A stretch of 64,000 nt of DNA from a virus: IMG/VR virus record IMGVR_UViG_3300020159_000429, positions 1 to 64,000 of that record; one strand, written 5' to 3'. Each line of letters opens with the position of its first letter. Position 1 is the stretch's first letter. This document shows positions 3,014-13,824 of this stretch, one piece after another. A model generated the notes under the pieces. That model made no database searches, had not been told where the DNA came from, and was given only the letters and a program-made list of their open reading frames with translations. The translations under genes were made by a program, and so were the position numbers.

Positions 3014-3646
3014 TTATTTAAATACAGCCTTGTGTAAATCTTCTTTTAATTCGTCATAGGTTATATGACATAAATTTTCAGAAATACCAGATAGAGCAGG
3101 AGGAACAAAATCTTTTTTGTCTGTTACTACTCTATGGTATTTAATATTTCGGAACTCTTTTATGACCTTTTCAGTCTGATTTACCCAGTTTCCAAAGTAA
3201 GTTGCTGTTTCGTAACTGCGTCTATAGTTAGGTGTATCAGCGTAGATGTTGTTTAGTTTTCCTTCAGTTCCTTGGAAATCAAAACCGCAAAAATAAATCT
3301 CATCGTAGCCATGACTGCTTGCTAACCACAATGCTGTAGGTCCTGAACTCCAACCTTTATGCGGATTAAAAAACTGAAATCCTTCTAATTTTAAAACATT
3401 TTTATTAGGATTAGTCCACACTTGTCGACCCAGTTGCCAACGAGAATTGGCAATTTCTCTGATCATTTTTTCGTCTACTGCTATTAAATAGTCGGGTTCA
3501 AACTCTCTGTAAAGAGCATTACACCCATAGATTTTGCCGTATTTTTTTAATTCAGGTAGGTTTAGACGCAGTCTACTGCGGCCGTTTCCTAATACGAATG
3601 CTATTTTTTTAGGCTGGTTGTTCGTCTGCGTTTGGTGGCTGTCCAT
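3014..3646 (-). CDS. GT42/DUF115-like protein (sialyltransferase-fold candidate)
   Basis: A 210-residue protein, not a standard T4 head gene. The N-terminal FVLGNGRSRL (about 17-26), GCNALYR (41-47) and the segment SSGPTALWLASSHGYDEIYF with GFDF (about 100-124) resemble the nucleotide-sugar binding core of Campylobacter Cst-type sialyltransferases (GT42) and DUF115/MptE-like proteins. The reaction is unknown; donor and acceptor cannot be read. It sits between the portal and core-protein genes in the same orientation and overlaps the preceding small gene by 38 bases. The frame is open to a TTG at 3661, but the ATG at 3646 is the better start. The family call is by remembered motif similarity and needs a profile search. 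Confidence 0.6.
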   Translation of the reverse strand: MDSHQTQTNNQPKKIAFVLGNGRSRLRLNLPELKKYGKIYGCNALYREFEPDYLIAVDEKMIREIANSRWQLGRQVWTNPNKNVLKLEGFQFFNPHKGWSSGPTALWLASSHGYDEIYFCGFDFQGTEGKLNNIYADTPNYRRSYETATYFGNWVNQTEKVIKEFRNIKYHRVVTDKKDFVPPALSGISENLCHITYDELKEDLHKAVFK

Positions 3647-12902: not shown

Positions 12903-12932
12903 TTAGAGATAATCCTAAGAATTTAATGTAAT

Positions 12933-12940
12933 TATTTATA
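12933..12940 (-). promoter_or_regulatory. Late promoter core TATAAATA, leftward
   Basis: TATTTATA on the plus strand gives TATAAATA on the minus strand, about 31 bases before the ATG at 12902. Transcription from here would cover the Pro/Ala-repeat gene but leave out the hairpin-rich stretch behind it. Confidence 0.75.
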
Positions 12941-12948
12941 TGTTTGAT

Positions 12949-13386
12949 AGCGAGCAATGCTCGCTTGTGTCTATCGCTAACGCTCAGACACATTTTTACT
13001 AGAATTAACTGCGAAGCAGTTTAAATATTATCCAGATCGTTCAGTCACACTTTGCCCAGGACGGGCAAAGAAAAAACATTATCCGAGTCGAACAATATCA
13101 CTTAGCGTTACAGCATTACAGTGGCGGTCATCCTGTACCACGAGCTGCGTCTTTATATGACGGCAATTATTAAATCAACGCTAACTGATTCAATAATCCG
13201 GGGATTCTCTCCCCTCATTTTAGCCTATATTAACTCTATTCAAACAGCGAAACCGCAGGCATTTTGCGATCGTGGTCCTGTTAAGGATACTTGCTGAGCC
13301 GTCTGCTACCAAACAGACTTACCTTACCGCCACACATCAGAGCGGATTTTGGACACTATAACAGTCGCCAGTGCGGGCTTTTTTGG
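12949..13386 (-). ncRNA. Candidate structured noncoding RNA (hairpin cluster) in the only long gene-free stretch
   Basis: No credible gene lies between 12903 and 13389. The stretch holds perfect or near-perfect hairpins: 12949-12965 (7 bp), 12967-12991 (6 bp), 13007-13021 (6 bp), 13051-13069 (7 bp), 13121-13141, 13166-13197 (12 bp), 13200-13214 (5 bp), 13276-13287, 13301-13318 (7 bp) and 13327-13345. The stems at 13166-13197 and 13301-13318 each contain an interior pair that is G-U on the minus strand but A-C on the plus strand, favouring the minus sense; two terminal pairs point the other way. The loop of 13166-13197 and the loop of 12967-12991 can both pair with 13102-13110. No tRNA, tmRNA, RNase P or group I intron core was recognised. 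Limits and strand are provisional. Confidence 0.5.
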
Positions 13387-13389
13387 CAG

Positions 13390-13824
13390 TTATTTTGCCT
13401 TTGATTGTTCTAAAAGACGCTGTCTAAGTATATTTGAACCGCCTACTCTGACGTTTATAATGCCGTTATAGTAGTCGTCGGATTCTAAAACCCTACGTTC
13501 AAATTGCTCTCTTGCCTCTAGATATGATAGTTCTGCCTTAGATTTACAAAGATAAAGTATTTCTCTTGTGAAGTTTTCCGGACCTAATGCTTGGACGTCT
13601 GCGTTTAACCTATCAGATGAACCCCAGTATTCGCGCCAATCGCTTTCTACTGTGCTTCTTCTTTTAAGTTTTTTGCCTTTGAGTGGTGGTTTAGTACGTT
13701 TGAATTGAGCTAATTTCTTGCCTATGTACTTCTGTCCGGTGTGTAGATTCGTGATGATGTAAACAAAGCCAATGTAGCCTTCTGGTATTTCTTCTACGGG
13801 TTGATTTTGATATGTCCACAGCAC
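13390..13824 (-). CDS. GIY-YIG family endonuclease
   Basis: A 144-residue protein with a GIY-YIG nuclease core: GFVYIITN (about 19-26) supplies the first motif and KYIGKK (32-37) the second, followed by a basic patch, WREYWGSS with a candidate catalytic Arg near 69, LEAREQFE with the candidate metal-binding Glu, and a C-terminal NVRVGGSN. The family cuts DNA; members include homing enzymes and T4 endonuclease II. No extra DNA-binding domain is visible. The start is GTG, immediately after the TGA of the upstream gene. It lies just upstream of the candidate structured RNA and downstream of the gp46 operon. Host-DNA degradation or recombination is as plausible as homing. Confidence 0.8.
   Translation of the reverse strand: MLWTYQNQPVEEIPEGYIGFVYIITNLHTGQKYIGKKLAQFKRTKPPLKGKKLKRRSTVESDWREYWGSSDRLNADVQALGPENFTREILYLCKSKAELSYLEAREQFERRVLESDDYYNGIINVRVGGSNILRQRLLEQSKAK

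Follow-up and report, generated by a model that had tools for sequence, protein, structure and literature searches.

Polynucleobacter-1 (RF01718), a catalogued RNA family, appears to be only the 5′ third of a much larger phage RNA. This RNA lies on the minus strand of the window, the 64,000-nucleotide stretch of DNA analysed here, which is part of an 82,576-bp IMG/VR virus record; the whole structured RNA occupies positions 12949–13389, about 441 nt, and its structure comprises 82 pairs across 70 homologs. We consider it very probable that this is a phage RNA with a Polynucleobacter-1 5′ third and that it is stand-alone in nature. Its odd feature is a set of co-varying direct repeats, which the earlier note on this DNA missed together with three further pseudoknots.

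When ORFs of 60 aa or more are laid out greedily, 12903–13389 (487 nt) is the sole part of the window longer than 300 nt that they leave uncovered; the earlier note had called 12949–13386 the only gene-free stretch of more than 300 bases. That note placed a noncoding, hairpin-rich RNA of minus sense at 12949–13386. Strong covariation bears out its noncoding, hairpin-rich character, and the location was right; the RNA is, however, somewhat longer, with covarying structure beginning at 13389, a 5′ start that adjoins the stop codon of the upstream gene. The proposed sense also holds. The minus strand folds at −147.9 kcal/mol (z = −3.85), with none of 100 shuffles as low, and the plus strand at −125 kcal/mol (z = −2.96). 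In 70 sequences, 94.2% of the cells are paired in the minus sense versus 86.2% in the plus sense, and the minus sense pairs better because 538 cells are G-U.

Homologs were collected with two motifs. One, 20 nt of the 5′ domain, was scanned against viral contigs, and at least 107 stretches with a stricter form of it were accepted as members from their flanks; the other was chosen independently from the 3′ half and gave at least 84 further viral-contig matches. Members found through the 5′ motif also hold the downstream domain, and matches to the 3′ motif, among those inspected, also hold the 5′ domain wherever the contig extends. Because the 3′-motif members carry the 5′ domain too, the two halves form one continuous RNA of about 440–500 nt. 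Among the matches listed, the homolog set comprises 146 non-redundant members with a mean identity of 63%, nearly all of them from T4-like aquatic phage contigs, and many bacterial viruses of fresh water encode this large folded RNA. Each collecting motif fixes its own letters, UAUCC..GGAC or GGUACMGG..ACCGCC..GUAAU, in the members that it brought in; the invariance of UAUCC..GGAC is thus partly by construction, because the motif served to collect homologs. Two other patterns, CAGCN{5,8}ACAGGATGACC and GGTACNTAGGNNNACCGCC, were discarded, as almost all of their matches were chance ones in coding genes.

Prokaryote genome contigs gave only two matches to the 5′ motif, L324 and L325; the former looks coding and was rejected as a member, and the latter is a real member in a Methylococcaceae MAG. 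A search with RF01718 of 201 genomes of the order of this MAG returned four matches in three genomes. Two blastn queries against an isolate-phage collection recovered no copy of the RNA; the one match, of 22 nt, fell in recombination genes. Three isolate phages bearing a SegE-type gene, Melnitz among them, were searched with RF01718 and gave no match.

The Rfam search matched the RF01718 model over its full length (model positions 1–141) to 13242–13379 on the minus strand, at 59.6 bits versus a gathering threshold of 37, and the consensus helices of RF01718 are kept with covariation (helices 4 to 7). The claim that no known RNA class is recognisable, for which a model search had been proposed as a check, is therefore wrong for the 5′ third and right for the remainder, which has no confident match. 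A table row on Polynucleobacter-1 gives Burkholderiales and fresh water or estuary (PMC2864571; Weinberg 2010). The 5′ third here fits this model above threshold and likewise comes from fresh-water sources; however, the catalogued model has 141 positions, whereas the RNA described here extends some 290 nt beyond it and includes pseudoknots and a 3′ part that covaries. Cow-rumen-2 (RF02947), which appears in a table of PMC11701678, matches weakly over its full model at 13197–13103 minus (22.9 bits versus a threshold of 66) and at the equivalent place in 4 of 12 further members (22.3–23.5 bits, below the threshold of 66). Both RNAs have a UUAGC hairpin loop and a ACAGGAUGACC core in the same order, but at 22–24 bits against 66 the RNA is a non-member by the rule of Rfam. 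A weak local match to manA (RF01745) in the repeat module of L120, where a hairpin is followed by GUGACUGAA-like sequence, reaches 18.3 bits versus 55.2 and is likely local or chance. A tRNA or tmRNA identity was ruled out, with no ARAGORN or Rfam match. In the main text of openly readable papers, neither the longer RNA nor its twin repeats were found described.

Pairs were derived from a MAFFT alignment of the 146 non-redundant members with a G-test screen, and pair counts were made on a separate 70-member alignment; the alignment that yielded the structure and the one used for counting are thus related, and the homologs were motif-selected. In the 70 members, 94.2% of the cells of the 82-pair structure are paired versus 78.1% in shuffles. 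The compensatory changes that the earlier note had suggested looking for were found: 62 of the 82 pairs are changed on both sides, and double-change cells number 896, against 247 in shuffles and 95–124 in slid controls. These counts support one continuous minus-sense fold with four crossing-helix pseudoknots.

At the 5′ end, CUGCC at 13389–13385 forms a pseudoknot with the loop GGUAG at 13310–13306 (13306–13389 minus; helix 1), with 89.8% of cells paired and double changes in all 4 pairs. The hairpin described earlier at 13301–13318 is thus real, but its loop is not free, since it pairs with 13389–13385. Enclosed by this contact is an H-type pseudoknot (13353–13378 minus), in which 13378–13376:13369–13367 is crossed by 13374–13370:13357–13353 (helices 2 and 3). 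Pairing reaches 92.4% of cells in helix 2 and 97.7% in helix 3, and 7 of their 8 pairs show double changes. Further on, a closing helix, 13296–13291:13250–13245 (13245–13296 minus; helices 5 to 7), encloses the helices 13287–13284:13279–13276 and 13271–13266:13256–13251. As a side observation, window positions 13287 and 13275 inside UAUCC..GGAC are coupled as T-C or C-T (109 to 36), a non-canonical exchange.

The 12-bp hairpin with a 7-nt loop at 13184–13178 (13166–13197 minus; helices 9 to 11) and the pairing of this loop with the strand 13102–13108 minus were both foreseen from the letters, and both stand. The stem 13197–13186:13177–13166 (helices 9 and 10) covaries, with double changes in 12 of 12 pairs; the loop-strand pairing reaches 95.7% of cells, is complete in 59 of 70 sequences and has double changes in 7 of 7 pairs, which makes 19 of 19 for stem and loop together and supports a pseudoknot between 13184–13178 and 13108–13102. 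The idea that a second loop, 12978–12984, competes for the same strand or switches on it did not survive. Its full pairing is possible in only 2 of 70 sequences, so it is a chance match without conservation, and the competing loop was ruled out.

Between the loop and its partner strand sits a compact pseudoknotted core (13110–13161 minus; helices 13 to 15), in which 13161–13157:13131–13127 crosses 13148–13144:13114–13110 and 13141–13137:13125–13121, with 98.0, 95.7 and 99.1% of cells paired in helices 13, 14 and 15. A long-range contact of GCC 13164–13162 with GGC 13056–13054 (13054–13164 minus; helix 12) is paired in 98.6% of cells and has one pair with double changes. The remaining hairpins are one between the repeat copies (13050–13070 minus; helix 16, 89.6% of cells paired) and the last of the RNA (12949–12965 minus; helices 17 and 18, 96.4 and 98.5%). 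Window position 13154 co-varies with the pair 13067–13053, carrying the same letter as 13053, and is a candidate base triple.

The surroundings are T4-like. The minus-strand neighbours encode a late sigma factor, gp47, gp46 and a SegE-type GIY-YIG protein, and a gene for a baseplate-hub protein nearby lies on the plus strand. The SegE-type endonuclease gene (13390–13824 minus; PF19835, 126.2 bits) ends beside the RNA; PHROGs (phrog_447) and many phage records call its family 'NAD synthetase', a name that appears to be wrong. SegE is present at 139 of the 146 RNA loci, in nearly every case immediately upstream of the RNA and in its orientation, and usually after gp47 and gp46. The downstream gene varies: at 31 of the 146 loci, gp96 follows less than 500 nt from the anchor and runs convergently on the opposite strand. 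In the window, TATAAATA at 12933–12940 minus, just past the RNA and before a 348-aa gene, fits the T4 consensus and is a putative late promoter.

Seven loci (L009, L050, L268, L311, L315, L325 and L259) have the RNA without an adjacent SegE, and when the records of five of them were searched for SegE, four gave none and that of L050 only a weak match. In L311, L268 and L050, a sigma-70-like promoter (TTGACA or TAGACA, 17 nt, TATAAT) stands just upstream of the RNA; the L050 RNA is set in an island of 18 tRNAs, and L311 and L268 have tRNA genes close to theirs. The SegE-less loci, their own sigma-70-like promoters and the tRNA island favour a stand-alone RNA and speak against a leader or 3′ UTR element. 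A leader of a fixed gene is further disfavoured by the frequently convergent next gene and by the loci in which SegE does not adjoin the RNA. We infer that the RNA acts independently, not as the leader of one gene. Each of L311, L268 and L050 also has a tRNA with a CTA (amber) anticodon, as called by ARAGORN, and in these phages TAG may be read as an amino acid.

The twin repeats are GGATAAT after CTC at 13078–13084 minus (copy 1) and the identical letters after TCT at 13027–13033 minus (copy 2), 51 nt further on. In other phages the spacing is 47–61 nt, and the shared unit is 7 nt, up to 10 nt, long. The copies are alike within nearly every phage, and the unit varies between phages (AGATAAT, GGATAAT, GGATGAA, GGATGAT, GCATAAT, AGATGAA, AGATGAG, GAATAAT, AGTTGAA and others, with ACTTAAAGAG in both copies of the Methylococcaceae contig); nearly all units read codon-TAA/TGA. 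Among 145 scorable phages, position 1 is G in both copies in 77, A in both in 68 and mixed in none, and position 2 gives GG 128, CC 11 and AA 5. An RNA tree built without the repeat columns requires at least 32 changes of position 1 in either copy. The copies agree in every one of the 17 supported independent comparisons at this position, and positions 2, 5 and 7 behave in the same way. L062 and L080, for example, have RNAs that are 96.4% identical, and their repeat unit differs in both copies. Recombination between phages may transfer the two copies together in a single block, which would lower the number of independent events among the 32 changes; each of a dozen repeat units still occurs as two matching copies. 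A divergent member, L315:1469–1860, has TTCAG[T/C]TCCACAA twice, as read by eye, and lacks both the CTC/TCT prefixes and the TRA pattern.

No other RNA column tracks repeat position 1 in the alignment screen, and none is a complementary partner column; the repeat strands have no pairing partner within the RNA. The repeat unit or its complement is not enriched among k-mers of the own flanks, and no residue of SegE, gp46, gp47, the gp55-like sigma factor, gp96 or gp303 tracks position 1. Along 12.8 kb of near-identical aligned flank, L080 and L031 show no third site with the same change as the repeat. With no co-changing RNA column, flank k-mer or neighbour residue, what is constrained seems to be sameness as such. 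We know of no RNA family defined by same-letter covariation.

SegE-anchored loci led to the same module under other 5′ architectures, labelled B (L411) and C (L414) beside A, that of the window. Type B is a large RNA dissimilar to the window type; it begins AAGGTTGGCGGGCCAGTTTG, lies downstream of SegE and has the same twin-repeat module at L411:2935–3640, L410:739–1250 and L369 about 3230–3640, with the units ACATGAA, ACATGAG and GCATAAT. Type C (L414:2932–3450 and L389:2914–3420; units GAATAAT and AGATGAT) has a core that resembles the CCG..GGTACAGG..ACCGCC domain and ends in the same module. Types B and C have no Rfam match, and a type-B pattern scan returned chance matches only. Since the same module stands under three 5′ architectures at one locus, the repeat module is the common element, and the 5′ parts above it look exchangeable. 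It is conceivable, and we put it forward tentatively, that the 3′ module is a separate RNA device, borne by at least three dissimilar phage architectures, in which sameness is selected rather than complementarity to a fixed target.

We propose the following for how sameness could matter. Two strands of the same sequence would stand around a hairpin, the rest of the RNA being the scaffold, and one nucleic acid would be handed from repeat strand to repeat strand or would bridge both. In a hand-over, a complementary copy of one repeat would anneal to the other repeat; in an alternative form, one exchangeable partner would be used at both sites. Both ideas fit, because a third co-changing partner is missing. 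That sameness is selected through one nucleic acid handed over or bridging both is a guarded preference; a bivalent seed gripping two copies of one target is a close alternative, though somewhat unlikely. The trans partner could sit beyond the few kb examined; a target might lie in another part of the phage genome or in that of the host, or a varying RNA-binding protein might be involved.

Other explanations account for part of the same evidence. GOLLD and ROOL have been reported near tRNA genes or islands (PMC12286853), and the present RNA resembles them in being large, phage-encoded, multi-pseudoknotted and at times set in tRNA islands (L050, with tRNA genes near the RNA in L311 and L268); it could be a self-assembling scaffold like their nanocages, with the repeats as assembly contacts. 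This seems rather unlikely, since base-paired assembly needs complementary, not identical strands and no complementary column was found, and the RNA has no sequence match to GOLLD or ROOL and no Rfam match to GOLLD, ROOL or OLE at the gathering or E-value threshold in the window or in further members. As the RNA mostly lies just downstream of a co-directional gene, directly after same-strand SegE in most of the 146 loci, it could also act within that transcript, as a 3′ UTR stability element or terminator, or as the leader of the next gene. We doubt this: the RNA is also found without SegE, the next gene is often convergent, and the RNA is far too elaborate for a terminator. Equally doubtful is that the repeats, two identical unpaired motifs at fixed structural positions, are sites for a single RNA-binding protein, its specificity differing from phage to phage, for recognition must then switch up to 32 times at position 1, and no residue of the six proteins screened follows it.

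The nuclease-domain protein that adjoins the RNA in most loci raises the thought of an RNA-guided or homing module of RNA and SegE, with the repeats as guide strands. However, cyanophages and T4-like phages commonly carry SegE relatives, the three SegE-bearing isolates searched were without RF01718, four SegE-less RNA records gave no SegE match and that of L050 only a weak one, and k-mers show no enrichment of own targets, so that such a module is highly improbable. In the ribosomal bypass of T4 gene 60, matched take-off and landing codons flank a 50-nt gap with a hairpin, and a stop follows the take-off codon. Matched triplets about 50 nt apart, the hairpin between them and the codon-TAA/TGA reading of nearly all units recall this arrangement, but the RNA here is without a coding frame: a stop lies within 5 codons upstream of copy 1 in 52 of 146 members, spacing modulo 3 is mixed (57, 54, 35), and identity spans 7 nt, not 3. 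Bypass is hardly credible and largely refuted, because no reading frame leads to the take-off position.

A 141-position catalogue entry would thus become a phage RNA of 440–500 nt with four covariation-supported pseudoknots, widespread among many aquatic phage contigs by the minimum counts of two independent motif scans. It appears to enlarge a known RNA family greatly, as a new form of it with a testable repeat feature. The twin repeats are a rare and strong evolutionary coupling by identical, not complementary letters; the cause of this coupling is directly testable and could reveal a new working mode of RNA.
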